Source: Amphirosellinia nigrospora (lineage: Eukaryota > Ascomycota > Sordariomycetes > Xylariales > Xylariaceae). From it: a DNA stretch of 64,000 bases. Below are positions 4,297 to 64,000 of the stretch, piece by piece; position 1 is the first letter of the stretch, and every line of letters begins with the position of its first letter. The stretch spans positions 6,839,058 through 6,903,057 of the forward strand of contig SCHM01000003.1 in assembly GCA_004123355.1 (NCBI GenBank), read 5' to 3'. The notes beneath the pieces were generated by a model. That model was given only the letters and a program-made list of their open reading frames with translations. It was not told the DNA's origin and did no database searches. The position numbers and the translations under genes were made by a program.

Positions 4297-6028
4297 ATGA
4301 AGTCGCCGTGGTAGCCGGCATGCTGCTGGCTTCGGCGCAGCTATCACCTACGGCGGCACAACTAAGTATAACGAGAATGAAGAAGCAACTCGGAATGACG
4401 TACATGAGCCTTGATGGTGAACACAGCCAAATCCTTCAAAACGATGATCTATCAGTTATGGGCAATGGCACTTTCGACCAGTTGCTTGATCACACTGACC
4501 CAGAAATGGGGACATTTAAGCAAAGATATTGGTGGAATGCCGAATACTACGAGGAGAAGTGAGTATTACTAGAACAGCCATACTCTCATTATTATTCACG
4601 GGGCAATTGCTGAAAACTGATCTTATAAGTGGCCCTGTCTTCTTGTTTAGTCCGGGCGAGAGTAATGCCGAGGGCTTAGTTGGATACTTGCAAACTTTAC
4701 TTTGCCCGGCCATTACGCTCAACAGTTCGGCGGAGCGGTTATTATACTTGAGCATCGGTATTGGGGGAAGTCTATTCCTTTCAACACACTCACAGCCGAG
4801 ACATTACAGTATTTGAACCTGCGGAACTCGGTCAGCGACTTGACACATTTTGCCAAGAACGCCGACTGCCAATTTTGCAAACAGAGCACCTGCAACAGCG
4901 ACGAGAACCCATGGGTATTGATCGGTGGTTCGTATAGCGGTGCATTAGCGGCTTGGACAAGCCAACTTGAGCCTGGTAAGTGATTATAGAGCATATGATA
5001 ATACCAAGATAAGTGATGCGATCTAAATCTAACACCACACAAGGCACATTCGCCGCGTACCATGCGTCTTCTGCGGTTGTCGAAGCCATCTACGACTTCT
5101 GGGAATTCGTACCTATCGAAGAAGCCTTGCCTCGCAACTGTAGTGCTGATGTCAAGGCCGTGGTCCACTACGTTGACGGTGTTCTCGCATCAGGCGATAA
5201 GACCAATGTAAATGTGTTGAAGGCTCGGTTCGGACTATCTGCTCTAAACGACGCCGACTTTGCCGACATTATTTCCAACCCTCTTCTTGCCTGGCAGGGG
5301 AACCAAGATGCCGTCATTGCTTTCTGCGACCAGATTGAAAGAATACCTTCCAACTATACTTCTTGGATTAACCACGATAGCAACTCAGGTAGAGGCGTGG
5401 GACTAACGGCTGCCCTCGACGCTTACACATCATATGTGAAGGAGAACAGCAACTGCGGCGAGAATGGTGCCGGCTGCGATACATACAAGAGCAACATAAA
5501 ATGGGATACCCCTGATAACCTGGAAGACGGCTCTCGGCAGTGGTCGTGGATGGCCTGCAACGAGCCCTTTGGATGGCATCAAACCGGACCGCCCACGTCC
5601 GATGGCACCAATATCATCTCCTCAGCACTGCGCCCCGAGCACTACCAGCGGCGCTGCTCTCTAGCATTCCCGAAGACGAACGGCTTCAGCGCCGGATCCG
5701 ATGTTGGACTTTCTGCCGACCACCTGAACAAGTGGACGAAGGGGTGGAATGCGCCATACGAGCGCGTCCTCTTCGTCAACGGCGAGCACGACCCGTGGAG
5801 ATCGGCTACGGTCGCGGCCGACTACCGTCCAGGCGGCCCCGTCGAGAGCTCTGCCGATACCCCATCCCTCATCGTCGAGAAGGGCGTCCATGTCTCCGAT
5901 CTCATACTCGATGATAGCCCGTATCAGGCGCCGTCATCAGCAAGGCGCTCGAGATTATGGGTGGTTGGTTAAAAGGCTGGGAAAAGCGGGCCCCGGCACG
6001 AGGCCCAGTTACAACAAGACGAGGATAG
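4297..6028 (+). CDS. Extracellular serine carboxypeptidase, peptidase family S28
   Basis: Secreted prolyl-type carboxypeptidase (S28, lysosomal Pro-X carboxypeptidase relatives). The nucleophile motif GGSYSGALAAW lies near 4923-4955, preceded by QQFGGAVIILEHRYWG. The aspartate is in NGEHDPW (about 5779-5800) and the histidine in KGVHVSDL (about 5881-5903). Two introns fit well: 4559-4629 and 4976-5043. The ATG at 4297 meets a stop at 4312 unless one base is missing near 4308; corrected, it gives a good signal peptide (MKSP, then VVAGMLLASAQ). The ATG at 4320 is the alternative start. A second break lies near 4697 and a third near 5928. After the third, the natural C-terminus (KALEIMGGWLKGWEKR) ends at the stop 6026-6028. 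Length, about 530 residues, is normal for the family. Function is secure; activity depends on whether the breaks are real. Confidence 0.9.
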
Positions 6029-13845: not shown

Positions 13846-16800
13846 ATGGCCGAGAAACTCACCGACGACCAAGTCCAGGGCCTCCTGGCTATCCTGAAGA
13901 AAGACACCACTGTTGATGCCAAGGTCCAGTACGTTACCGTCGTCAAGTCCGGCATCAAGCAGCACAATGTGCCCGATTCTTGCGTCGCGCCTCTCTTCGA
14001 GGGTCTGCGACAGGCCTCCACCTCCCAGCACGCCGCCCTCGTGAACGCCGGCTTCACCGCGCCAACCACCTGCTCACACGCTTGTCGCGCCAAGAACCGA
14101 AGTATCTCCTGAGAGAGGCGAAACAAACCCTGCCCCTCATCGCCGACAAGATGGGCGACCAAAGGACAAGTTCAGGGCCCTAGCCCTGCAAGCCATGGCG
14201 ACTATGTATGCCCACGTCCCCGTCGATGCCGAGAGATTCGTGCGCAATACTGCTATGACCGGCAAGAACCCGAGAGCCAAAGAAACAAGCATGCAATGGT
14301 TACTTCAGGTATGCGCATTCCTCTGGATAATACCTCTACCGGAAATGGAGATTACTAACCCAACATAGATGCATAAAGACTATGCGTTACCATTCCGATC
14401 CTACGTTCCGACATTGATGGAGCTACTAGAAGATGCGGATGGCATGGTGCGGGATGCCGCCAAAGCAACCGTCATTGAACTATTTAGGTGCGTGATAAAT
14501 TTAGGCGTATCAGGCGCTCAAGTGTCTAACAATGCTGTAGGGAAGCGCCGAATGCGGCAAAGTCGGACTTAAAGAAACAATTAAAGAACTTCAAAGTACG
14601 ACCAGCTATAGAATCGGCGATTGTAAAAGAGCTGAACCCTACGAGCGCGAAAGCCGACCCAGAATCTCGTCCGGCGTCAGCTATGCAACATAGACCCAAT
14701 CTGGCTGCAAGCGCCTCGTCCCATATGAGCAGGCCAACCACACCGATGCTCCCAGAAGCCAAGACGGAGTCGGTTGACCCCACCTACGTCAACACCCAAC
14801 GAGAACTTGATGAGATTATTAAGGGTATGCATCAATGGTTCGAAGGGAAAGAGACGGAACAGAACTGGATGAAGCGAGAAGAGAGCATGGCCAAGCTGCG
14901 GAGACTCATCGCCGGGAATGCCTCGACGGACTATCCCGATCTCCTTGTTTCCGGCTGCCGCGGTCTATTAGACGGCATCATCAAAGCTATCATTTCGCTG
15001 CGGACAAGCTTGTCCAAGGAGGGTTGCGCTTTGGTTCAGGATCTAGCCATTACCTTCGGCCCCGGAATTGATCCAATGGTGGAGTTACTGATGCAAACCT
15101 TCATCAAGCTTTGCGCTGCGACGAAAAAAATAACCTCGCAACTGGGCAACTTGGCGGTTGATACACTTGTTGGCAGGACAACATACACAGTTAGGATCAT
15201 GCAACATATATGGGTGCTTGTCAAGACAAGAATGTTCAACCGCGGGTGTACGCAACTGGGTGGCTTAAGACTTTGCTAAAGAAAGAGTCTCAACACAAGA
15301 ACCACCTCGAACATGGCGGAGGCGTAGACTTAATTGAGAAATGCATCAAAAAAGGCCTCAATGATCCGAACCCCGGTGTCCGAGAGAAGATGCGGTCCAC
15401 ATACTGGGTCTTTGCGAGCATTTGGCAGATTAGAGCCGAAACACTCATGGATGGCCTCGAGTCTACTGCACAAAAGCTACTCCAGAAGGATTCGCACAAT
15501 CCAAACGCGCCCAAAAAGACGGAACCAACTGCTCGCCCTGGCCTGGGTCTTTCTAAAAGCACCATGGGTAGCTCCAAGCCCTCATTACGGGAGACGATGA
15601 TGGCACAGAAGAGGGCTTTAACCACGAAAAACCTTCCAGCAAGGCCTGGGTCCGCAATGGCCACAATATCTCCAGCACGGGGAGTTCCAGCGACCTCAGG
15701 CACTTCATCAACGCAGCCTGAACCTCACCCACGTCCAAAGTCCTCTATGAAATCACACGGCGGTATGTCTGTGGCGCCCATGCGACCAGCTAGAAAACGG
15801 CCGGAGATAGCAGCCCGACCCGCCACGGCAGGACCATATTCAGTCCGAACACATGACGGGCCATCTGCGGAACGGTCAAGTCCGGAAAGCATCAGGTCTA
15901 AAACCATAACCCCAAGACGATATCAGGGTCGCCTAGGAGGACGGCACCGAGAACTCGCCCCGGTCATGCTACAACTGCAAGTGAATCGAGTGCCAGCTCT
16001 CATACACCGTCAAAAGCGCCAGTAAACAAATCTGTCGCTTCTCCACGGCCCAGCCCTGCCAAAGCCAAAACAACCCTTGGTCATGTTCCATCATGTAGTC
16101 CGTGCAAAGATGAGCATCTCACATTTGTTGCTGCGGCGTCTATTGAGAACTTGAACGAGAGCCTGCAACCATCTTCGCCCGAAATTATTGTGTCACCGCA
16201 GGACGAGCCTCCTGAGCCTCCTCTTGTTACTCAAACTCCTTCACTCCAAGTTATTTCTTCCCACAGGTCGATCCTATCTCATCACCGGATCCTCCGGCAG
16301 AAATTATTTCTTCGCCGCGGACCGATCCTCCCCTAACGATAGAATCGCAAAAGGACGAAAATGTGTTCCCGCCAAATCCACTCGAAACAACAATGTCGAA
16401 GCTAGTAAAAGTGTACGAAGACCCCTTCATCGAAGATGAGACGACATCGAAGCCACAGTTAGATAAGCCTACTGAGCGACCTGCACTCGAGGACATCCCG
16501 GTCAACGAAGATGTAGCCAAGCTTTCTCAAGCGCCGGCAGAAATCAATGGCGCAACCCCACCTTGTTCTCCCGATAAGACACGTCAGAATTCTCGTCTTC
16601 TCGATAGCGGTATCGCCCGCGTGAAAGGCAGGTCCTTGGATGTGCATGGCTTCCGCAAGTTGCAGAGTCTAATCCGTGAAAACAAATTACCTTTCGCCGA
16701 CGACAAGTTTGACGCCCTCTTAATAGGATTGTTTGAGTATCTTGAGTCCCCCTCGACGGTCTTTCTTCTCAGAAGGTACAAGACGTCAAAGCACAAGTCC

Positions 16801-27212: not shown

Positions 27213-27311
27213 TCATTTTTGCGACTTTGAGAATAGCCGTCCAAATTTCCCTAGGGACTTGCGGAATTTGCTAGCTTTCTTTGATTTTTGCTCTATTACA
27301 TCTGGCGATGA

Positions 27312-27342
<31 letters not shown>

Positions 27343-29762
27343 AAGGATTGTGATTTTGAACTACCGTTCGAGTCGTGTTCTTGTAATGCAATTTCTGGGG
27401 CATCGTAAACGCTCAGGAGACTCTGGCGGAGCCTTGTCACATCAAATGCCTGATTGGGTGATAACACCAGTCTTTTCCGGTGTTTTTCGAATAGACTGAA
27501 AAGCTGTGCATTCATAACTCGGTACTCATTCCCTTCGGGCGCTGACTTGATCTGCGCCACCAATGCCTTGCAGATAGTCTCGTCGGCATCAAATTCAGGT
27601 GAGCACCATTTGCGTAGCATCTGCCGTGTCTGATCAAGGTTAAGGTAATCACGGACAGTCCGATGCAAGAAATTAACTCTGCGATTAAAGTAGACGCTAG
27701 AAGGCAAAGCGTCTTCCTCATCTCTCAAACGTTGCTCTTGAACCTCTAAGAGTCCTTTGCAGTAGGCATTCAGCCGCTTTTTCATCTGCTTCATGCGCTT
27801 GTTGACCTGGTATATGGAGAGCTCTTTCATTTCTAGCTTGATAGGGTAGTCGGGATCTTCGTCGCCCATGAACCAATATGCCATGAGTGGCAACTCCTCA
27901 GCCGCTTCCAGGGTGACGAAGAAAATTTGTGCCGAGTGACTGTGGTAGAACTCGTTGACGTTGGAAACGAGAATGTTCTTGAAGTACTCATTGAGATCGG
28001 TCGGTAACTCTTTGAGCCGCCTCTGCAAATCTGATATACGATCGCCGTTTGTCAGACCTTCCTGAAACGATCGCACGACAAGGAAGACCCATAGAAAAAC
28101 GCCATTGGATGCGTCGACGATTTCCTTGATAAGGGTTGCCCCGTATGTATCCTTTCCTTCGAGGTCTTGGAAGTTCTCGTCCTTTTTGAACGTGTCATCG
28201 ATGTATGCAGTGATGTCTACGGTATTGTAATCTTGCATATACAGTTTCCTTGTGTTCATTTTCCCAAACTTCTCCTCGAATTCGTTCCACGAGCGGCTGG
28301 ATAAACACATCTTTGCATCGAAGAAGTTCCGGAGATCTTCCATCAGCTGAATCGCACCATCGGGCTTACCGTGATATTCACTATGAGGGATCAAAGGTTA
28401 GAAATTATCGCTTAGGGCAAAAAAGTGGCTCATGAATAGGGTGGTTCGCGAGCATGCATGAATGAGCACGTGGCACAGAGGAACAGCATTTGTGCCAAAT
28501 CGGGGAATAGAAGACTCAGAAATACTAACTCCATCCCATCAATAAAAAAACAGAACTTGGTCTGAGACTCTTTGGCTTTCGATGAGATCTTCTGGAGCGT
28601 CTCACGAAGACAGGTCTCTGATAATGACACCAGAAGGCCATTATTGAATGAAGAGAGTAGATCTTGTCTCCCGCTATTATTGTCTAAGTTCTGAAGACCC
28701 AAGACACCTGGGTATGCCACAGGAATCAGATCGGGACAGTGGCGAAGAATCTGGTAAAGCAAAGACCGCATCAGGCCTTCCTGAGATTTTTGTAGCTCGT
28801 CCTTCCCGGAGTTCCAAAAGAAGAACTCGGCCATGACAAGCTTGCTCTCACCAGCCCAGGTTTCCAGTGCTTCGGAGGTACGAGGATGCGACGACAAGAA
28901 CTTCATCAAGGTCGACTTGCCAGATCCAGGCTTGCCCGTAATCCAGTAGACGCCGTCCTCGGAAGTAAGCCAGTCATTGAAAGTGGCAGGGCTGTCCCGC
29001 TCTGCTGCGTTAAACAACCACTTAAAAGTATCCTCGTGGGCCTCGCGAATTAAATCATGTCGGTCATCAATAGTATCAAATCGGAGCTGTTCGAGGATGA
29101 GTTGCTCGGCAGAAAAGCGAGATCCTTGACCAGTAGCGTTCAGCAAAGCGACCACTGTCTGATTTCGGGACTTGTCTTCTCGTAACCGATGCCCAAAATC
29201 CTCGAAGAGGTCGCTGAATACCCCCTCAGTTGTGTGATCTCATCTGTCCGATGGGCTTCAAGCCGGCGGTTTTCCGACTCCAGCTCGTCCAAACGCTGAA
29301 AGAGGCGTTTACGGTCATATGCAGCCAGATGCCTCTCTATGTTGGTTGCGATGGTCTCGAGGCGACTACGCAGCTTGTCAATCTCCTCTTGGCTCCACAC
29401 GCTGAGAGTGCCTTGTATACAGTTTCGGCATGACCCAGCTTTCCGTCTTTGTACTTTGGTTTCAGCCGCTCCAGCTTCTCGAGGAGCACTTGGGCTACTT
29501 CATCACATTGTACGCAGAGCGCACGGATCGACTTTTCTTCCCCCGATAGTGGGCGCGAGAATCGGGACCGTGCACGAAGAACAGCCGGTGGCTTAATTCG
29601 AGCGACATACTCCCTGAGTTCTCGAGAAATAGCATCCAACTCATCATGCTCCTCGGTCGAACCTAGATCTCGTAGTTCCCGGCTGGAGGACACAATCTTC
29701 TTAGCCACGCCGGCGAATTGCAGGATATTACCCGCGAGGCTAAGGGCCGCCAACGCCTCCAT
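27213..29762 (-). CDS. NACHT-domain STAND NTPase
   Basis: Fungal NLR-like signal-transducing NTPase. The N-terminus (MEALAALSLAGNILQFAGVA) is the helical domain typical of fungal STAND proteins, followed by a coiled coil (IDKLRSRLETIATNIERHL, LDELESENRRLEAH). The NACHT P-loop VYWITGKPGSGKSTLMKFL lies near 28905-28960. Walker B is split by an intron (complement 28381-28529): joining GAT-GGG-ATG-GA to TGAATATCAC restores FFIDGMDEYHG. Downstream come FLHRTVRDYLNLDQ, typical of the region after NACHT in this class, and an acidic EAEAEAEA run coded by a hexamer repeat (about 27312-27334). A Lys/Arg-rich amphipathic tail (FRKSLGKFGRLFSK) ends at 27213. No ankyrin, WD40 or TPR repeats follow. Frame breaks occur near 29390 and 29150. 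About 780 residues. Confidence 0.87.
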
Positions 29763-31735
29763 GTCGGGATAAATGAGCAGAGTGTTGCGCTCGAGGTAAC
29801 AGACGTAGTTACAGTTACAGTTACAGTACCTAAGGTGAGACGTTTAGTCTCGTGACACCTGTAGTTCTAGAACGTTACGGCTGGCCGCAGCCAGGCGAGC
29901 TGAGGTGGCTAGACGGTCCGCATTTGATGTCAGCAGCAGAGCCAATTATAGTAAAGGGGTCTAAATCGACACCCATGTCCCGCCCTCTAAACCTCTACAT
30001 AGTCTCAAAAATTACACTACCTACGAAGTAAGTGTAAAAAACCTCCGCCTATTTGAAAAAGGCTCGTTTAACTCGGCTTCCATATTTAATAGATTCTTCT
30101 CAACTTTTTTTTATGAAGGCAATGAGCTTTGACAAGAATTCCATTTCGGTAGGGGTGCCTGGGAGCCACTACACAGCACAGGAGGTACCTAAGTAAGTAC
30201 TTAAGTAGGTAGCATGTGGCTACGCAGATCGGATAGGTCACTGGACGGCATAGAATGGCAAGGACGGAACACGGGAGTACCTGCAGGTCTGCCCAGACCA
30301 GTATAGTAGTCTCCGGGTCACTAGATCGAATCAAACTTCATCATTTTCATTTTCATGGTCAGGTTTCTGGTCAGGTACAAACCGTGATGAGACATAGACC
30401 CAAGCCCAAACACGCGACTGCACTTCCAAACTGATATCTTCCTTATTGGGTAGCCTGCGAGTTCTGCCGGGCTGTCAGCATCCGATCGTCTCGTCTCAGG
30501 ATGCCGCCGACGCCTTATTGCGGCGGTTGTCTATTTATTCACCCTTGCTCTATCGCACAGGCCAGTCAACTTTATTAAACCCAATAAAACAAAACAAACA
30601 AACAAATGACAGCGCATACCTACATGCATCCATACCTCTATACACATACTTACATCTTAATCCTACATAATCCCCACTGTATCTGCCCTAACGCGAAATG
30701 CCCGCGATATTCACAGCCTGTAGGTGGCAGAGATGAAAACAAACAGAAACCCAGCCGATTCAACGTTTTGCGCTACGTAATACCTGAGAACTGTGCTGCG
30801 GTTGTCCGCCCGGCTTTGATCATGAACACTAGTAATCATCCGACGCTAAAGATTCCCTTCGCCGCGATGGCTGAGAAAATTTCCCTTCGGACGAACCTCT
30901 CTAGCTTTAACTTGGACGGATGGACCTGGTGGGGAGATGGTATCGTCCAAGCACGCGTACTGTCCACTCGTCACCACGGCTTCGGGGATGACGAGAGACA
31001 TGTTCCTACGCGGTTCATTACGGGTAGTCCTTAGATGCGACACAAGATGGCCAATCTCTGCGGCCCACGAGACACACCCGTCTGTTGTGTTGTGGCAAGA
31101 TGACCACACAAAACCGTCGAGGTGTGGCTACTAAGCCCTCCTAGGGGAAACAAAACCAAGGCATTCTAAGACATTGGACTGGCTATGGAGCGTTAGCCAT
31201 CTTACAAGTGGTGGGGTCCTGCACGCTGCTGCGTGCCGCCAGCCATCGCCTCTTCGACGACACCCCGGTCCGTAAGCGCCAACTGGGCCACGACCTGAGC
31301 TACACAGCCTATCAACGCTTCGGACGCCTGCATCCATATTGTCAACGCTCCCCATCCAAGGTCGTCGCAATGTGAGGCCCAAACCCATCTCAGGCCCATC
31401 CGTCCGCTCAGCTGCTCCAACCCTAAATAGTAATAAGTATGCAATGTAAATTCTAGAGGGACTGCCCGTGAAGCTGTTTTAAGACCCCACGATCGCCATG
31501 ATCTCCGTGCCTGTCTGTAATCCCACATCTATACTCGATCGCTGGCCGTCCATTCTTTCCTGCCGGCTCGACATGCAGCTACTACCATGAAAGACACACT
31601 TAGTGGGATGTTCAGTTCGCTGTCCCATTGTATTTCTCAGTTTTGGCAGCCCATGGCTCCCCATCTCGACGAGAAGTCGCAAAGCTATGCTATTAATTAT
31701 ATTCATTCTCTATTATTCGTGACGAACCATCATTC
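29763..31735. other. Intergenic region
   Basis: About 2 kb between the NACHT gene start (minus) and the 437-residue ORF (plus). It contains a short GTTACA repeat near 29805-29826 and a TACCTAAGTAAGTACTTA palindromic motif near 30186-30206. Short ORFs on both strands show no recognisable content. Confidence 0.5.
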
Positions 31736-40650: not shown

Positions 40651-43106
40651 CTATTCTTGCTCCAATCTCCCACTTGAGCGGACTTCCCCGGACCTTGCGT
40701 AACGCATTCTTTGTATTGGTATTTGATGAACCCTGGCCATATGTGCGGTTAGATTGTCTTGTCTCCTGAAAGTCTTGGTACAGTAGCTGCAAGAAAACCC
40801 GAAATTCACGTGTGTACTCAAGTGCTTGCGGAAGTATGCTCTGTGGTTCTCAGCCTTCCCCTTTGGCACGAACCCACAATGGGGACATTGGAGTTCGGGA
40901 GAGCTTCAGAAATGTCAGGGATTTCCCGGGCGTCCAATACTTGAAAGGGCTCCTCTACCGTTTCTTTCAACTTGTAAATAGATCCCAGAGTCGTCTTTCC
41001 GGCACGGTTGAGTTGGGAAGAGGTTCAGAAATGTGAGGTATTTTCCGGGTGTCCAATACGTGGAAAGGCTCCACTACCGTTTCTTTCAACTCCCAAGTAG
41101 AGCGCCGAGTCGTCTTTCTGGAGCGGTTCAAAAAGCGATCATGTTCATGACTGGGGTCATTTTGTCTTCCATCGGTAAGTGCGAGGGCATTTTCAGCAGT
41201 TTCTAAGAAATGTTGCGGCTTGTTCGTCTGTTCCCGATTTGCCGTAGACAAAATGTCAAAAAGGGGAAGTAGGGTACTCTGTGCCCGCGCATATGAAAGC
41301 TCTCCTCGTTCTGGACTGTTGCAGCCGAGGTGATTATGCCTGGATGCTTGTTGATACTGTAGGATGGCTAAATCTTGGACACTCTGATTCCGCAGATTGC
41401 GGGCATCTACATCTATGCCAGATGCAATTAAGATACGAGCAACTTCACCAAACTGTGCTCTGATAGCATAGTGTAGTGCTGTGTTCCCTTCTCGGTCTCT
41501 TAGGTTAACATTTTCGCCGACCATCCGTGCTAAACATTTCAGAACATCAGACATTTCCCATTCGTACTTTAGAGCAGCTTCAATGAACACCATCACATAT
41601 GTTTTGCCATCCTTATTGTAAATTTCTTCGTTACTCCCGTTGGTACGTGCAATCAGCTCCAAGTCGTACATAAGAATACTCATCGGGAGTACACAATCCT
41701 GCAGAGCTTCCACAATGTTAGGGATGGTCGGGAGGGTCGACCAAGAGAAACGGAAACGGTTTGATTTACTTAGAGCAGCGAGAATCGCCGAGATAGACGT
41801 CAGGTCGAGGTTATTGACGATCTCTGGATTTAGATCTGTTACTGTTTCGAACAAATCCCCTAGCCGTAAAACGCCGTGAATTATTTTGATGTTCCTGAAT
41901 GACTTCTGGCGAGCGACTAACGCTCCCCAGAAAGTAGTCGAAAAAAGACATACATCTATAATCTCGGAGATGGAAAAGGACCCCTGTATCTCTAGCAATG
42001 GTGCAGAAGAGAGTGAAGCTCATGAGTGGTGGCATGACTATGCTACTCCACCGTTGTCCCAGAAGGTGCATGAACGTATGCCCGTCTACGTCTTTGACGT
42101 TCACTAATTGCTTGACGTTAGGCTGGCCGAAAAATTTTAGGATAAGCGGTATCGCCGTGTTGTCTGGGGCCCATCTGGCAGCCAAATGAAATGGAGTTTG
42201 ATTCCATAAATCTCTACCGCCTTGTTGTGTAAAATCTTCACTCCCGAGGCCACGATTTTTGAGTTCCATTGGGATTGCACTACTGGCCGTCATCAAAAAT
42301 TTTCGATGGAGACAACCTGAATGGTGTTTGCAGCACAGCTCGATCAATGTCTTGGTTCTACTGTCCTCGCCCAATTGTCCCCTGAAAGGATGTTCTGGGA
42401 GTTATCGTCTTTGTCCCACTGGGAAGAAGACCTCGAGCCGAGGGACGAATCGAGAGAGGAAAAGCGGCTAAGAAGGGTGTGGATCTGAAGCAAATGATGA
42501 ACAAGAGTTGCCTCTGGATATGTTGTCAAGCTGTTCTCGGACCCATGCAAGCGAAATATGTCGATGAATTTCCATGTTAACACCATTCTTATGTGAAGGC
42601 GAGGCATTGCTGGATATTGTATCGACATCATGCGGGTTCCCGATAATCTTGTTTGGTCTCTTCGTACGACGCCGCTGGTTTTTGTGCACCGCCCATATCT
42701 CACATGCCGGAAACGTGCCACCCTCCGACGGGCTTCTTCTCGATTTCGGGGACGGAGGTTACGATACCCACTACCAAAGAGACTCTTAAGCTCGTTTTGG
42801 GTCGATCGAGGTTTGGTTTGGAGACCGTATTCCGCTAAGACGTGAGAGCTAAGTTCATGAATAAGTCAGCACTCTGACTTTCTTGGGCGAAGCTCTGAGC
42901 ATTGTTGTTTTCGGATACCTTTCCACTGTATGCTCTGTTCTTGCCAAGCTCGAGATCAACCCGCTGATTTTCTTGGTACTCAAGGTTGATTCGTCGGTGT
43001 ACAAATAGAGCCGAATCAGTCTTCGCTTCATTGCTGGCTGATCCCAGATCCGCCGGGCGTTGGGCGGTCTACCTGGTCCTCGCTTTTTTGCTATTTCTGG
43101 CTTCAT
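40651..43106 (-). CDS. Ankyrin-repeat protein with Clr5-like N-terminus and C2H2 fingers
   Basis: Composite fungal protein. The start (about 43106-42900) has KRGPGRPPNARRIW and RLIRLYLYTDESTLSTKKI, resembling the Clr5-type DNA-binding N-terminal domain. After a probable intron near 42855-42880, RNLRPRNREEARRRV completes that region. Ankyrin-like segments follow: NQTPFHLAARWAPDNTAIP and DVDGHTFMHLLGQRW at about 42080-42200, then DREGNTALHYAIRAQFGEVARI at about 41425-41510. The C-terminal end has a partial zinc motif CPHCGFVPKGK and a full C2H2 finger, FSCSYCTKTFRRQDNLTAHM, with stop at 40651. A 120-bp tandem duplication sits just before the fingers. Several frame changes (about 42350, 41950, 40990) are not all introns. 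Probably a nuclear factor; binding target unknown. That these pieces form one gene is inferred from order, strand and spacing. Confidence 0.65.
40888..41126. repeat. 120-bp tandem duplication inside the ankyrin/C2H2 gene
   Basis: Unit A (40888-41007) and unit B (41008-41126) are head-to-tail copies with about three quarters identity by eye. Both contain CTACCGTTTCTTTCAACT and GAGTCGTCTTTC. On the minus strand they encode related peptides: KETVVEPFHVLDTRKIPHIS and KETVEEPFQVLDARKIPDIS. Confidence 0.9.
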
Positions 43107-51512: not shown

Positions 51513-54500
51513 ATGGATCCTCTCTCAATTTCAGGCTCTGTCGCCGGCATAGTGGCGCTTGCAGGCACCGTGTTTTCACTGACGGCGAAGTACATCAAAG
51601 GAGTGAAAAACGCACCAAAAGAGGCCACGGATCTACTAAACGAGGTGAAGAATTTCTCAGTCCTTCTTCATCACTTGTCTTGTAGCTAGTGAGCTCGAGA
51701 TAACTACAAAAGATGGCGAGGAGGCCCTACGGGATTCTCCTAATTTGAAATGGCATCACATCTACGATTGCCAAACCATTTTGAACCGTATCGAGAATGG
51801 CCTCGGGAGAGTTACAGAAGACCTAAAGTCCTCCTCAACCTCCAAAAAGATCCGCAGTCACCTCAAGTGGCCCTTTTCATTAGATGATACGAAAGACATG
51901 ATCCAGACGATCCAGCGCCATAAGCAGACAATCAGTGTCGCCTTGAATGCAAATTCATATAGTCGGTTGGCAATATGCCTATCTCGTCAGGAAGCGGCCA
52001 CTAAACGCCAAGAAGAAACCAACAGGCGCCTAGGGGCATTGAAGACACTGTAAAAGAGATCCTAGATATCGATACAAAGGTCGTTCTAGACGAAAGGCGG
52101 AAACTCGTGCTCGATTTCTTCGCTAAGCATGCGAATCCTTGGAATGAGTTCGAAATGGTACAAAATCTGCATCATCCATTGACAGGCTTGTGGTTCACAG
52201 AGTCAGACGATTTCAAGGAATGGAGAGCTACTCCGGGCTCAAAGCTCTGGATCACTGGCATACCTGGGGCCGGGAAATCAGTTCTCGCAGGGTAGCCATT
52301 CAAGAGTGCCTGAAGCTCAGCTCAGCAGATGACAGAGGGCCACGACATACTTCTTCTGTACCTACAGGAACAATGCAACTCATTCGGCAAGAAACTTATT
52401 GTCTTCAATGGTTTCGCAGCTTGCTAAGCAGAATGAGGAAGCATTTAAGATCTTGGAGGAATACTACCAAGAACTCCTATCTCGGAAGCCCCTGGCAGCA
52501 GAGCCGTCGACGAAGAAGCTCTTAACGGTTTCGCAACTATGTGTGGAATGTTCGACCAAGTCTTCGTCGTTGTCGACGGTCTTGATGAATGCGATACGGA
52601 TGAGGTTGTTTGCAGTCTAACTCAACTCTTGTTGAAAAAGAACACCACTTCAATCAGCACACTACTTCTTAGTCGAGACGTAGTTCATATTCGGGATCGA
52701 TTAGAATCGGACTTTAGCGAGATTGAGATCGAAGCTCACACAGAAGATATACAGCGCTACGTGCTCGCTGAGCTAGAAGTACGCATCAGCTCAAAACAGC
52801 TCAGGTTGCGCAACCCCGAATTGAAGCTTGAGATCGTAGACAAGCTTGTGCATGGTGCCAAGGGATGTAAGTAAACAAAGTTAAACATAAGTGAAGAAGA
52901 TAGATTAACTTTCAAAACAAGGTTTCGATGGGTGGCTTGTCAGCTGGACTATCTTGGCGAGCTTCCAAGCGACCGAGACAAGCGGATTGCTTTGGCTAAA
53001 CTTCCACCAACACTACCAACCACCTATGAGCGCATTCTCATACGAGTCGAGCAGTCCGGTAAAGAAGCGCAGCGACTGGTCCAAAAGACCTTACTATTGA
53101 TCCGCGCCTCCTTTAATAAGGTGGATTACCTCCTAGAAGCCCTTGCAATTCGAGATGACTCAAATACTGTCACCGAAGAACATGGTGGATGAGTACGAGA
53201 TTATGTTAAGGTGTAGCAGCCTCATTCGAAAGTCAGCGAATGGTAAGAGTTTCGAGTTCTCTCACTTTACTGTCCAGGAATTCCTCGAGGGAATCGATCC
53301 AACGCATGCAACTCTATGCCTTTACCGCGTCTCTGAGCACATGTCTCGAAATTTCCTGATCCAAGTCTGCCTACGATACTTGATGCTAGATGAATTTGAT
53401 AAGCAGCCTCAGGCAGACATGGAATATATCAACTTCATTCGGAAGCGAACTCAAACAAGACCCCTTTACAGATATTTTGCGACTTTCTGGCTCGATCGCC
53501 TCTGGGACTTTGTGGACGAAAATTTAGATTATAACAGCGCCGAGGTTGATTCTACAACTATGGAGCTGATTCGGGCGCTTTTCAGTATCCAAAAAACACA
53601 TAGCTTTTGCCAATGGGTTATTGATTATGCGGACTCTTTCGCGTCTGAGCCGGCTCGATTCGGCCATTGGGGCGATACCTGGGTACCATCTTATAGGAAA
53701 AGAATTTACGATTTTGGCAAAGGTACGCGCGGCCATGTTACTGAGAAGCCAAGTTTAGAAGAAACACGAGATTTTGTCATATTTGTGGCTAGCATTATCC
53801 GACCAGATTTTACACCTTTGCATATGGCATCATTGCTCGGCCAGCCGGACGTCTGTGATCATCTACTGAGGCAAGGAGCCAAAGTGAACCTCAAAAGTCG
53901 TCTTGGTACTCCACTACACTGCGCGGTGGCCGGGTTTGACGTCTTTATCCGCACAGCCACTCCCGCCAGATTTCGACTGTTTGGAACAACAATGGATGAA
54001 TGGAAGGAGCCACTAGCAAAAAATCAAACAGTGCGCCTACTCCTTGCTGCTGGGGCAAGTGCGGCCCCGCGTCTCTCAACGCCATTTCAACAGAAAACAT
54101 TCATAGGAACGATGCATCTGTCCCCCAGTGTCTTTGAGTTGTTTCCAGATCTTTTACGGGCTGGGATGGTCATTGAGGAAGAAGATTTGCTCCACTGCAG
54201 AGCCAATTACAGGCCGAAGATCCTTCTCCTGTCATTTTGAACTTGCTCAAGTGCCTCGAAGACATTGGAGAGAACAGTGCCAGCCATGAAAAGCGGTCTA
54301 CCACCACCGTAGACCGGTTCATGGAGAGAGCACATTTCTATCTGAATGACCTGACTCCTGAGAACATCTACAATAAGTTAGCCAGTGAGACTGACAGACT
54401 TGATATACTGAAGTCTATCATTATAAATAATAACATTATTGCCTTGGAGGAAATGGCGAATGGGAGCCACAGGGAGCTTTTAAAGACCGCCAGGTTCAAT

Positions 54501-57500
54501 TTTGACGGCGAGGAATGGACAGTAGTTCACCTAGCTTGTGACTCAAGCTCCTCGGATGTCCTTGAGCTGCTGTTGGAAATGGGAATTGACCCGGAAATCC
54601 CGACGCATCGAGGTACAAAGCCGATACATCTAAGCCGTACATTACAAGACGGAGGAGACACTCTGAGAATTCTTTTACGGCATCACGTTTCTACTATGGC
54701 GACAATCGGTAGTCTAGGTACCATTTGGCATGCGGGAGTTCAGAATGATGATATACATGCACTGAAGCTTCTTGTTACGTTAGCTTCAGACAAGGCCGAC
54801 GCGTTGAAGGTCGTCTCTGGTTTGGGACAAACTGCAATCTGTCTCGCCCTTGAGACAAAAAGCAGGGCTGTTGTAGAACTTCTACTAAAGTACTGCCCTA
54901 CACCATCGTTTTGGCAAAGTAACATGCCTCTGTATAGACAAGCAGCACAGTTAGGTTCTTTTCATGTTGTGAAGAAGCTACTGGATATGGGCATTCAGCC
55001 AGACAACTTCGATGATGAATTGGGGAGTCCCCTCCATTACATTGACACTCGGGCATCGGTGCGATGTGTTGAATTGCTGGTGGATACATTCCCGCATTGC
55101 TATAAACAACGTAACGACGGCCGAACCCCTTTTCAATCGTTTTTGATACGAGTCATAGACGAGGATACTGAAATAATGCCAGAACCCTTAACAACATTAC
55201 TTTCAGGTTTCGACTCGTCTCAGCCTGAAATAGTTAAAAAAATGGTCGACATCTGGCGTTTTTTCTGCTCGGCTATCATTAGATATATCCCAAAGGCGAG
55301 CAGAGAAGTCAGTTGGATCAAGCAAGTCTTGATTTATTTTATCGACGCTGGTTTAATAACGTACGTTGAGGAAGAGTACAAAACCTCTGCATTCGGGTTG
55401 TTTGCAACTGAACTGGACCAAGCCTTATCTACGCTACTGCCTAAATGGCTAACCCTGCGGCAGGACCCATTTAAACGCTTTAACGATCGTGAGAACGGGA
55501 GGTTGTCAACCTTGGAAAATTGGGAATGCGTTTCCGATATGCTACTCAAGCTAGCATTATCTAAAACAGCATTCGTATATAGTGCGACCGAACATCGCTC
55601 TATTACTCGACTTCTATCCCACGCAATACTCCACGACGACCATAATTTAGTGAAGCTATTGTTACAGAACGGCATTAAAGTTCATGGACGATTGGACTCA
55701 TTGTCAGCGTTAGAGATAGCTTGCATACCGGGGGTAAACATTTCCGAAAAAACATTTCGATGCCTGCTTTCATACGCCGAAGCGGATAGACTCATCGAAC
55801 AAAATGAACGCCTCTCTGGTTACAATATCACCCACTTTGCAGGCGTCGGAAGAGCTTTCGAGGAGCGCTCTCCTTGGAAGCTTAGAAATATCCTACAGGC
55901 AGGTGCTGATGCCAACGCTATGTCATCTGGACCAGCGCATATACCTGCGCTAGTGCTTCATGTTCTCTGCTCTCACGTAGAAACAGCAGAAGTCTTGCTT
56001 GAGTTCGGAGCAGATCCATGGCTCGCTGACGCGGAAGGGTTCGATGCTGCTCTAGCTGCAACTCGTAGGAACAATTATCCCCTCTTGAAAACAATTGAAA
56101 AGCTATCAATATCGCGCAAGCTTGCCACTAAGTGGAATGCTACCTGGATGGATTTCGCCGCTGGGCTGTCGGGGGGTAATGCATTTCATCTAGCAGCAAG
56201 ACATAATTCTATCGAATGTATGCAGGTCTATCTTGATGAAAAATGGCTGGAAGATCTTGAATCACTTGGTAAGTCTTATTTTGAATTTTGTTTATTTGCC
56301 CTTTGACCCTTTTTCATCTTGTTTTTCAAGTTCGACTCAGCTTTCAATTTATCCACTTCTAAACAAAATTAATACAGATGATAACCTTCAAACGCCCATG
56401 CACTATGCAGCTCGATTTGGACATCGGTTTACCATTCAATTTCTTCATCAAAATGGCTGCAACATCAATGCAATCGCACGATGCGGCAAATCGCCATTGC
56501 ATCTGGCAATCGAAGCAGAGAATCTGGATACTGTGAAAGAACTCCTGCGACTAGGTGCTGAGATGAAAGTCGACACGCATGGGCTTTCGCCCTTGGTTTA
56601 CGCCTATAGATCCGAGAATTCTGATCTCATTAAGGTCATTGCAAAACGAAGCAAAAAGACAAACTATCAACATTTCAGTTCAGCGACAAAGGCACCACAA
56701 AATTAGCAGATGCATTCTTGGTAGCGTTAGACAAAGAAGATCTGGATGCCTGCCAAACATTCATCGCTCTAGGTTTTCCAATTGATTCCGAGATGTGCAA
56801 GCCGTGGCCTGTCACCCCATTGATGGTTGCGCTTAGTGATAACATGCCTTTTCAGGTTGTGGAGTGGCTCCTCGCTAAAGGAGCAAAGGTTTCAATTGTG
56901 TTCGAAGGGCCAGATATGCCGAAATATGCTACAGCTCTAGAGGCAGCCATAGCCAAGCAGAAGTACAACTCTCTTACCTACGCTCCTACACGCTACCTCG
57001 AAGAACAAGGCGATTTCAGTCTCCTAAAGAAAACACCATTACATGTAGCTGTGTCGAGAGAGAATTACGAAGGTCTCAACATTTTATTACACGAGCTGCA
57101 GGAGATATCGTACAATGTTGAGGGTATTGTCAATCAAAGAAACAGCTTATTGGGTGACGAAACTGCATTACATCAGGCTGCAGATTTAGACAGTGTTGAT
57201 GCTGCGAGACTGCTCATCATCAATGGGGCAAATCTCGAGCTCCAAGACAGCAACGGTTGGACACCTTTGCATTATGCCGCGTCGAGTGGTTCGCTTAATG
57301 TACTCAAGCTGCTCATCGAGAAGAGAGCTTACATTGAACCGCTAACTTTGCGTACGCGACGCACGCCTCTTATGTTAGCATGCTTGAACGGCCGTGTCGA
57401 AGTCGCGAGATATTTATTACGGTTCGAACAGCATATCACGAAAGATGCACGTGGTATGGACACAGTTAGTTCAATTGCATACCGGGAGATTATGAATGAA

Positions 57501-58347
57501 TCTTCCCAGTTAAAATTAGGGGCTATACTGTTTCCTAGAGGTTTTGACCTCCACCGAGCGGATATAGATGGCATGTGCGTTATTTTTCGTATAATGGCCT
57601 GCGCCAGGCATTTGGTTTTGCGATACCTTCTCAGAGAATACCCTCTGTCTTTGCGAATTCAAGACATCAACTGGTCTTCCTCTTGGGTCCAGATCTACTT
57701 ATATGATGGTACCCTTTCCCTATCCCATATTGTGAGAGCCTATCGCCTTATTCATCGATACCTTGGACGAGGAAATCCCTGAAAGTGTCAGACTCGGTGG
57801 CTATTGGTAAAAGTAGTTTGTTGTATCTGGCTACGTCCACAGGGCTTGTTGAAGCTGTCCATAATCTCCTCTCAATTGGTATCGATGCCGAAAGCGAGGT
57901 CTGTGAGGGGGCCACTGCATTGAGTATTGCAGCGGCTCACGGCCAGCTTGATGTCGTCAAATATCTGGTTCGGCGAGGAGCAAACGTCTTCAATGAATTT
58001 AGTTGTCCCCAAAACAGAGCTTGCACTCCCACTCAAAAAAGGAGATACTAAAGTGGTTGGTGGTTGACCGTTATACTGATCAAGCTAAAATCACGACTGT
58101 TAATCCTGATGTGGACGAAGAAGATATCCAAGTAAGAGGATGGGCTGGAGTAATACAGATAGGAGTTTGGTTGAGATGGGAATGGAAAAAAAGAAGGGCG
58201 GAGACTATGCTCGAGTATGCTCACCGACTCCAGAAGATCATGACGGCGCTTGGAGGAGAAGTCATGAACCCGCTCGTTGATAGAGAAAACGAGAGGAGTG
58301 AAGCCGGATCCAGTGACGAAGAGGAATCTGGTGATGAGGATACTTGA
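51513..58347 (+). CDS. Giant NACHT-ankyrin NLR-like protein, frame-broken
   Basis: STAND NTPase with a long ankyrin array, about 2,200 residues. The N-terminus (MDPLSISGSVAGIVALAGTV, then KGVKNAPKEATDLLNEVKNF) is the helical domain common to fungal NACHT-ankyrin proteins. The P-loop LWITGIPGAGKSVLAG lies near 52245-52293 and Walker B VFVVVDGLDECD near 52560-52596. FEFSHFTVQEFLEG (about 53250-53292) marks the winged-helix region. Ankyrin repeats run from about 53810 to 57990, for example FTPLHMASLLGQPDVCDHLL and GWTPLHYAASSGSLNVLKLL. The C-terminus has KKEILKWLVVDRYTDQ and an acidic tail ending at 58347. Introns are likely near 52866-52925 and 56269-56377. Frame breaks occur near 51680, 52055, 52295, 52400-52540, 53180, 54237, 56700, 57780 and 58020. 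The arrangement is typical of allorecognition or innate immunity receptors; function here is inferred. Confidence 0.88.
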
Positions 58348-61167: not shown

Positions 61168-64000
61168 ATGATATCCTCCAATTCTAGCACATACCTCAAT
61201 CCTCCAACCCACACTGCTGTCATTGTTAGGCCTCTGATATCTACCACACCACTTGAGCGTGAGAAGATTCTCCAAGATGTCGAGTACAACGTATTTGCCT
61301 TCCCGCTGGCCTCCTTACATGTGATTTTCTCTCAGATTCGGGGTGCGTATAAAACCCTACTGTGGCTGAGACCTCAGTGTTTTTATTTTTTTATTATGTC
61401 GCAAATTTTATGCTGTGTAGTTAGAGATTTTGACCAATGTGTTTTCACCCACACAGTACCTCAGCAATGACAGACCTACAATGGGCCGCATGTGAGATTT
61501 CCATATTATTATTTTACATTTATTAGATCCCCTCCCACCTTCAAGATCCGTACTACTTTCAATTTTGATTGTTTAGTCCACGGCATGTCGGGATCAAGTT
61601 TGAGCTTAGTAACCCACACAACCCTACTACTGATACATAAAGTAACTAATATCTGATAGTAATAAGATCCGATGAAAGCTATGGGCGTAACTGGGGATAC
61701 TATTGCCTATTAGACGCATTTCGCGACACATTTGAACGCGGTAGCAATCATAGGCAGTATCTCTTTCGTAATATTCTCAGTGGAACGGCGGATGGCGAGT
61801 TCTATCGTAGGAAGCTCCTTCTGTCATGCGAAGGGGGCTTCGTTAACGGTGGGCCTCGTCAGCTTGAGCACCCAAACTTCTTCATTGTTCCTCAGGGTCG
61901 CTGTGCCGAGTTCCTCTTATTTTCCACTCTTCGAGATATGATCCTCGAGATGCCACCCTTGGCCTCTTCCCAGTCTTCAATCATCATAAGCAATGGCTTC
62001 TTCGATACCACGGCAGCGAGTAAGTGCTCTGTTCCCCATACCGCTCTTCCAGGCCCCTTAATAGTTAGCCGGATGTTACTACAAGCGGCAAGCTCTAACA
62101 CCTGGGTTATGGCAGATGCTACAGCCTCAGGATTCGAGATCCATAATTTCGTCCAAGCAGTACCGAAAAGGAAGCTTCCTCAAGTATCAAATCCTTTCTT
62201 GGGCAACCTAAACATTGCTGCGGCGGAATCATTTATAGATAAGCACCCAGGGCGAGTAAAGTTAATCTTGATCACAATTACAAATAACTGGGCTGCAGCA
62301 CAGCCCGTGTCAATGGCAAATATCAAGGGTACGGCCGAGCTAGCGCGCGTAAAGGGGTGCCCTTATTCTTCGACGCTTGTCGATTTGCGGAAAACTCTTG
62401 GTTCATTCGTAACTCGGAGGACGGATACACTGATATGCCGGTCGCCGATATCGTACAGGAAATGTTTTCTAACGTGACGGGTTTACTATCAGTTTAAAGA
62501 AGGATGGCCTCTCGAACATGGGCGGTGTCCTGTGTTTCCGCGACAAGTCGCTCTTCGCGGAACAGTACCCCGGCATAGGACACCGCTTGAAGCAGCGACA
62601 AATATTGTGCTACGGGAACGACTCTTATGGTGGTAGTAAGTGCCGAGAAAGCAAGCTGGATGATCCGTCGAGACTAACGACGATGCCAGTGAGCGGTCGC
62701 GATTTAATGACGGCTGTTACCGGTTTGTACGAGGTCATAAAGAGAGTTACCTCCGCAGCCGCGTTTCTCAAGTCCATTGTTTTGCTCAGAAGTTGAGTGA
62801 CAGCAACCTGCCAGTTATTTTGCCGGCTGGGGGACATGCAGTCTACCTAGATATGGACGAATTCTTTCACGGCTGTGATAGACAGCTCGGCGACTTTCCT
62901 CAGTAGGATTTACCCTAGAACTTCTCAGGAGTATGGGAAGAGCATTCGAATCCGGCCCCTTCGCGTGGGAATGGGATAAGAAACCTCCTGAGGAGCGCAA
63001 GAAAATACCCAATCTAGTTCGATTTGCTGTGCCACGAACGTTCTTTCCGATGCACATATCAATTACACAGTCGCAGCGATCAAGGCGCTTTACGATCGCA
63101 GACACATCCTCCTAATGTTAAGGTCACTAGAGGCAAGATATGATGCTTCGCCATTTCTCTTGCGGAATGAAACCCGTTCCTATGGAATGCAACGTTTTAG
63201 GGACGTATCTTGATGAGGCTAGACGCCAAGTATCTCACCTCTCTCGAGCTATTGGGCAAGATGGGGTGTCAAAAAACAAAGTTACTTAACGCTCTCGCCC
63301 TATTAGCTGTGAATGGGGCCAGACAACGATCCCACGATCTATAGACCCCTCCAGTTGGGTTTCTTCTATTAGCAATGACAATTCGCCTTTTGAGTATTCA
63401 ATTCTATTGAATCAGGCAACTGGGGAAGCAGAACTGCGGCTCCTAGTTGATGCTCAACTGAAAAACCACAGCCTGTCACAGCTTCAGGAACGGATATTGC
63501 ATCTGAACGAAGCTATTCTGATGAGACATGGCGCAACGGTTTCGCTCGATAGTTAGAAACTTATCAGGGATATATTTATGCCGAAGGAACCTGAAGGAAA
63601 CTTTGCTGCGTGGCATAGTTGCGCGGTACCGAGACGGGACCCAAGTGGAGGATATATCTCAACCCCTATGCATGGGTAGACGAAATGCGTTGTCTTCATC
63701 CCGGGCGGCATTTGAGCGGTTGGCATGACCAATGAATGGAACTTGGTAGAGAGGACTATGACTCCTACTGACTCGATTGCGTATATCTCACTCGACCTAA
63801 CCCCTAGCCAGGGGAACGCCCGCATCGAGTCTACATGGCTCATGAGGGTCTCAGCACGTGAAATCGCGCGGAAACGAGGCGATTTGCCCACATTCATGCG
63901 CGTTCGATACAACGGTTCTGCGAGTCCATGGCTGGTACCCTGGGGCCTATACAAGAAGCCTCTAATGTCTAGCTTCGCCTCACGAGCAGTACTGGAGTCG
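61168..64000 (+). CDS. Tryptophanase-like lyase fused to a DMATS-type prenyltransferase, 3' partial
   Basis: First part: PLP-dependent beta-eliminating lyase that should split tryptophan into indole, pyruvate and ammonia. Visible motifs are FLSDSG, VPQGRCAEFLLF (phosphate site), SNGFFDTTAA, TITNNWAAAQPVSMANIK, DACRFAEN and SLKKDGLSNMGGVLC, where the second Lys should bind PLP. YGG-MSGRDLM and the end MLRHFSCGMKPV follow. Asp in FFDTT and His in LRHF are the residues that separate tryptophanase from tyrosine phenol-lyase. Introns: 61343-61456, 61492-61659, 62020-62115 and 62636-62689. Second part, from about 63200: LGTYLDEARRQVSHLSRAIG, DNSPFEYSILL (catalytic Glu region), EAELRLLVDAQ, PKWRIYLNPYA and YISLDLTPSQGNARI, as in DMATS/ABBA indole prenyltransferases, running off the window. 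No stop or start separates the parts. Several one-base breaks occur in both halves. Confidence 0.82.

Follow-up and report, generated by a model that had tools for sequence, protein, structure and literature searches.

The right end of the window, the 64,000-nucleotide stretch of DNA analysed here, raises the question of whether a tryptophanase and a DMATS-type prenyltransferase are encoded there as one fused gene. On the + strand, a tryptophanase domain lies 5′ and a DMATS-type prenyltransferase domain 3′, and both were identified by homology, in the order and at the place given by an earlier sequence-only reading. The gene contains introns, its tryptophanase part starts at the ATG at 61168, and its prenyltransferase part runs past the window end (64000). 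Given the order and spacing of the domains, one fused gene appears to be the best reading of the locus.

The neighbouring genes of the window (ankyrin, NPHP3_N/DUF7791, fungal rhodopsin, S28 peptidase, CLASP, Sec62, histidine phosphatase), together with the introns, are consistent with a filamentous ascomycete. The large ankyrin gene (53137-58051) stops about 3 kb before the putative fusion starts and, like the NPHP3_N/DUF7791 gene at 27216-29843, is presumably of the fungal NLR-like kind. Also, three overlapping ORFs lie in different frames of the minus strand at 40970-42865, one with ankyrin repeats and another with a weak, sub-cut-off PPTA match; they may be parts of a single gene interrupted by frame breaks or by introns.

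The identity of the lyase was established on single-frame pieces. Five of them (61653-63112) gave colinear matches to the NCBIfam tryptophanase PRK13238, with E values of 9.9e-24, 7.4e-13, 5.6e-12, 1.7e-10 and 2.3e-4; the best bit score, obtained for broken pieces and not for a whole protein, was 83.9 against a curated whole-protein cut-off of 285. The sole match of a sixth piece, 62992-63210, was TphnTnaApg1401 (E = 0.069). PF01212 matched 3 of 7 lyase pieces (28.7, 27 and 18.8 bits; cut-off 27), with E = 1.1e-6 for the piece 61653-62336, which is exon 3 read through intron 3 into exon 4. The same piece led to the closest solved structure, the tryptophanase 8sl7 (phmmer, E = 1.2e-26). In a frame-tolerant DNA-protein alignment, made for both domains with a purpose-written script, the lyase was identical to the long-type tryptophanase of Fusobacterium vincentii at 229 of 500 aligned residues (46 percent), over residues 11 to 541 of 545. 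This alignment scored 807 (no shuffles run), against 316 and 404 for two short-type tryptophanases, for which shuffles reached at most 61 (30 shuffles each); the score of 316 is that of the Streptomyces CL7 enzyme. The extra stretch that the long type carries after FERG is present. The predicted lyase is of the long, Fusobacterium-like type and not of the short type found in the Streptomyces CL7 pair.

The gene model has five tryptophanase exons, all on the + strand. Exon 1 (61168..61342) carries the ATG and the N-terminus HTAVIVRPLIS..EREKILQDVEYNVFAFP..LSDSG, aligned with Fusobacterium residues 11-57, with one net -1 break near 61306. Intron 1 (61343..61456, GTGCGT..ACACAG, 114 nt) was placed on its splice dinucleotides with ends set by eye (61347-61456 by the script), and the alignment runs on across it (SDSG / SAMTDLQWA) into exon 2 (61457..61491, SAMTDLQWAA), which was defined by alignment. 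Intron 2 (61492..61659, GTGAGA..TGATAG, 168 nt) was drawn from splice dinucleotides and alignment. Exon 3 (61660..62019), based on the phmmer match to 8sl7 and on PF01212, holds the long-type insert and reads SDESYGRNWGYY..FERG..EGGFVNGGPRQLEHPN..PQGRCAE..NGFFDTTAA. It is followed by intron 3 (62020..62115, GTAAGT..TGGCAG, 96 nt, with a branch-like CTAAC at 62095), placed by eye where the script gave 62064-62160. The PLP domain, with TITNN, DACRFAEN and SLKKDG, was located in exon 4 (62116..62635) by the NCBIfam tryptophanase pieces and the alignment, with breaks near 62346 and 62474. Intron 4 (62636..62689, GTAAGT..TGCCAG, 54 nt, branch-like CTAAC at 62674), also placed by eye, shows up in the Fusobacterium alignment as additional in-frame sequence that separates SYGG from SGRD. 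The NCBIfam piece matches and the alignment define exon 5 (62690..63181), which contains the C-terminal part down to LRHFSCGMKPV (63146-63178), with breaks near 62743, 62883, 63038, 63109 and 63135. The four GT..AG introns fit the alignment, the GT..AG rule being built into ends that were placed by eye.

The lyase retains the stretches QGR, TNN, DACR, SLKKDG, VRFA and LRHF, which we take to be the key or catalytic stretches of tryptophanase, and the PLP lysine in S-x-K-K-D is present in SLKKDG at 62491-62508. Presumably, tryptophanase is told from tyrosine phenol-lyase by the histidine of LRHF near the C-terminus and by the lack of an arginine at the phenol-lyase position. Here the window reads LRHFS, and RAFESG stands where phenol-lyase has RSMERG (matched by eye). 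Both features make tryptophan, and not tyrosine, the probable substrate. Of 141 columns that do not vary among four short-type tryptophanases, the window keeps 86 and Fusobacterium 91; of the 91 columns invariant in all five tryptophanases, the window keeps 78. When one short-type enzyme was left out, the window kept 79 to 88 of the 92 to 109 columns, and the left-out enzyme 91. As the lyase columns are kept nearly as well as in Fusobacterium, any decay of the gene would probably be recent.

The prenyltransferase part (63362..64000) covers about the first 70 percent of a DMATS domain before the window cuts it. The sequence-only reading had made its proposal depend on a significant DMATS match after 63200, and such matches were found: the piece 63290-63553 matched TIGR03429 with E = 2.8e-5 (PF11991 gave E = 0.0052, below cut-off), and a 117-residue single-frame stretch matched the PDB chains 6zrx and 6zry with E = 1.5e-6. 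Five further DMATS chains followed at 3e-4 to 0.07, and an eighth match was an unrelated antibody. The pieces 63140-63286, 63525-63725 and 63716-64000 had no match on their own. The DMATS pieces, broken and truncated as they are, miss the curated cut-offs (26.6 vs 163.85 bits for TIGR03429; 16.6 vs 25 for PF11991). However, the stand-alone P0001 (132.2 bits) and Calothrix (109) enzymes likewise fall under that of TIGR03429, so that missing it does not exclude bacterial members.

Frame-tolerant alignment of 63179-64000 with the Streptomyces CL7 DMATS scored 113, which is 15 standard deviations above 200 dinucleotide shuffles (mean 35.9, sd 5.1, max 54); the reversed protein scored 32 and the minus strand 39. 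Among the seven bacterial DMATS compared, five scored 109 to 214, with the cyanobacterial enzyme of Calothrix best (214), and two (YIM, 39; SAT1, 51) no higher than shuffles do with CL7. Identity was 75/248 (30 percent) with Calothrix and 67/242 (28 percent) with CL7. The colinear similarity of 63179-64000 to DMATS members is beyond chance. The window keeps 27 of 42 DMATS columns invariant in four references, and 32 of 74 in a second column set, of which Calothrix keeps 42. We take the catalytic glutamate and the diphosphate-binding R, K and Y residues to be the signature sites of DMATS. The glutamate of PFEYS, the arginine of ELRLL and both tyrosines are present, R stands in place of the lysine in the KIYLNP motif, a frame break coincides with the lysine of VKIY, and the remaining sites lie beyond 64000. 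The seven DMATS chains matched in the PDB include none that we take, by organism, to be fungal; judged by this lack of fungal enzymes among the structure matches, the prenyltransferase looks like a bacterial-type DMATS.

Does one reading frame cross both domains? As sequenced, a single unbroken coding frame is absent, with about 12 frame breaks and a firm stop. The alignment needed 12 to 36 frame changes, depending on the penalty setting. At one listed setting there were 17, of which 4 were at intron edges unphased by the script and 12 of the 13 others were net -1; at the cheapest penalty, 22 of 36 were net -1. Breaks in the DMATS part lie near 63638, 63673, 63720 and 63827, with a firm TAG at 63554 and an ambiguous frame after about 63859; a TAA also occurs at 63287. 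It had been claimed that the lyase continues in frame, only a few residues after LRHFSCGMKPV, into the prenyltransferase. This holds for the nominal frame of PFEYS and ELRLLVDAQ, but about 70 codons and the TAA at 63287 intervene, and it fails for PKWRIYLNP (63640-63666), which lies in another frame. That both enzymes sit in one chain was borne out as far as a single gene-like unit is concerned, but the reading frame of this unit is broken about 12 times.

The junction itself (63182..63361) would comprise a short linker and a presumed DMATS N-terminal region, with the frame uncertain at 63240-63296. From the lyase end at about 63181 to the first firm DMATS residues at 63362 there are about 180 nt, or about 60 codons. 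In bacterial DMATS with a defined start, 60 (Calothrix), 64 (cadmiisoli), 66 (NBC470) and 74 (CL7) residues precede that point, by hand count. The gap is thus about filled by the DMATS N-terminus, which leaves little for a terminator, a promoter and a leader. The lyase frame stays open for 35 codons, from 63182 to the TAA at 63287; as the probability of this by chance is 0.17, the open stretch is weak evidence by itself. When the DMATS N-terminal stretch was compared with three references, one of them gave a score that stood out from the shuffles, the observed score being reached by 1/200 shuffles for NBC470, 81/200 for CL7 and 144/200 for Calothrix. The case for a fusion rests more on the order and spacing of the domains than on the junction sequence.

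We estimate at roughly 75% the probability that a fused tryptophanase-DMATS gene, intact or recently decayed, explains this locus. Ordinary fungal genes would generally need more intergenic room, and the fusion is favoured because the order and spacing of the domains leave little room for two of them. The locus might nevertheless hold two adjacent, unfused genes, tryptophanase then prenyltransferase, with the first stop lost by decay or sequence error. The Streptomyces partners are indeed separate neighbours, DMATS N-terminal homology is weak in the junction, a 35-codon open frame could arise by chance, and the gene is already broken, but as the DMATS N-terminus would take most of the space between the domains we regard this arrangement as unlikely. 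A misassembly joining two loci near 63.2 kb would fit the likely sequence errors elsewhere in the window; it is highly improbable, because the two partners match in function and the joint coincides with the domain boundary, something that a random join would rarely achieve. Finally, a chance resemblance to DMATS could be argued from the three of four DMATS pieces that have no match alone, but given the shuffle, reversed-protein and minus-strand controls, the scores of at least 109 with 5 of 7 bacterial DMATS and the PDB and NCBIfam matches, its probability is close to nil. The likely architecture, read from sequence, is a fused tryptophanase-DMATS.

A fused gene could be intact and working in the organism, most breaks being single-base deletion errors of the consensus, and this is compatible with the main reading. 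In favour of such errors, the non-intron-edge frame changes at the listed setting are nearly all net -1, and net -1 breaks without an intron also occur in the CLASP gene (near 15207-15225, backed by profile positions), the S28 peptidase gene (near 4690, the middle piece placed by eye) and the ankyrin gene (near 54195, by eye). This same kind of break in other genes suggests deletions in a deletion-prone consensus, and conservation at the lyase columns is close to that of the Fusobacterium enzyme. Against this, break density is higher here, with 11 breaks (12 by the alignment list) in about 2260 nt vs 3 in 8235 nt of other genes, a hand-made tally from which two further CLASP breaks placed by eye, at about 14050 and 14158, were left out. 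A conditional binomial test gives p = 8.7e-6 for 11 breaks here and p = 4e-4 for 8. Moreover, some long ORFs elsewhere in the window run through without a break (457 and 709 residues, for example), the TAG at 63554 is no frame break, the breaks lie away from homopolymers, and the net -1 excess shrinks at the cheapest penalty. The higher density and the firm stop argue for a decayed copy, and we place an intact gene at a little under even odds. Either recent decay of this copy or a consensus prone to deletions could account for the breaks. Homopolymer errors were rejected as the cause (mean longest run 2.17 at the 12 breaks vs 2.62), as was repeat-induced point mutation as the cause of decay, since its indices near the breaks resemble those of the rest of the window.

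The product of the fused gene would be, or recently would have been, one chain of about 900 residues in a filamentous fungus. Its N-terminal half, a long-type tryptophanase, would carry out the PLP-dependent beta-elimination of tryptophan to indole, pyruvate and ammonia, and a short linker would lead to a C-terminal bacterial-type DMATS aromatic prenyltransferase. Within this single polypeptide, the halves may work on tryptophan one after the other and so yield a prenylindole, like the actinomycete pair, in which tryptophan prenylation comes first, and their joining may couple both steps. With about 12 breaks and at least one stop, this protein would not be made as sequenced. Should some fungus express the fusion, a single protein would link the cleavage of tryptophan with the prenylation of indole, offering a direct prenylindole route in fungi and pointing to a fungal DMATS of bacterial type that differs from the enzymes usual in fungal alkaloid pathways. 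Such a gene fusion would also support the view that the two enzymes of the actinomycete clusters form a functional pair.

The arrangement appears to be new, with both component enzyme families known, and the function of this copy is putative. No fungal tryptophanase-prenyltransferase fusion was among the matches listed in full-text searches of the non-subscription literature. Tryptophanase as such occurs in ascomycetes: tnaA has been described in 16 fungi and its horizontal transfer from bacteria argued (PMC8537960, in the parts covered). The words prenyl and fused are absent from the main text of that paper, and the parts covered mention no second domain. The F. vincentii tryptophanase (L001) and PDB 8sl7 have the same insert after FERG, but they lack a C-terminal prenyltransferase. 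In a scan of bacterial genomes with the lyase piece, two hits (L003, L004) were set aside, as their matching ORFs encode short proteins whose one shared feature is a YGRNWGYY-like stretch and which, judged by eye, are no tryptophanases. No relative turned up when viral contigs were scanned for patterns of the lyase and DMATS pieces.

As for the prenyltransferase, the bacterial DMATS (Calothrix, Streptomyces, PDB 6zrx, 7w8u and PriB 5inj, the PDB chains being taken by us to be bacterial) belong to the same family and are colinear with similar spacing, but they are stand-alone enzymes; the Calothrix and CL7 proteins share the 30 and 28 percent identity given above. A plasmid search with the DMATS piece gave no match, and the bacterial references emerged from the plasmids when the query was first a fragment of the DMATS PDB 4yl7 and afterwards the full CL7 protein; PF11991 matched in 0 of 14 control genomes, which is uninformative. 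On the Calothrix sp. NIES-4101 plasmid (L006:4860-9495), the cyanobacterial DMATS is annotated as hypothetical, and after it come one further hypothetical gene and then a flavin monooxygenase and an SDR, a neighbourhood that recalls actinomycete type B clusters. In Embleya sp. NBC_00888, a DMATS gene lies in an unannotated stretch (L010:4001-4915) of a 5.7 Mb record labelled plasmid. At another DMATS locus, besides the two Streptomyces pairs described below, an FAD-dependent oxidoreductase adjoins and no tryptophanase was seen in the 9 kb covered.

The nearest parallel is found in actinomycetes, to whose pairing of neighbouring tryptophanase and prenyltransferase genes the sequence-only reading had pointed. 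In the parts covered of the study on them, type A clusters of Streptomyces sp. SN-593 and others combine a tryptophanase with an IptA-type prenyltransferase, and IptA is a tryptophan 6-dimethylallyltransferase, with tryptophan itself as substrate (PMC3617294). We found two further pairs, on Streptomyces plasmids (CL7 and NBC_00470), in which the DMATS comes first and the tryptophanase follows 54 and 61 nt away. On the CL7 plasmid (L005:4779-10087), DMATS, tryptophanase, two methyltransferases and a P450 are adjacent, which makes this a type A cluster that carries additional tailoring genes. The same two enzyme families acting on tryptophan are thus neighbours in actinomycetes, but there the genes are separate, the prenyltransferase is first in both pairs seen, and the CL7 tryptophanase is of the short type. 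We hypothesize, at even odds, that in a fungal lineage a long-type tryptophanase gained by horizontal transfer became joined to a DMATS of bacterial type, giving a bifunctional enzyme that would make prenylindoles directly from tryptophan, with the same pair as the actinomycete neighbours in the opposite order.
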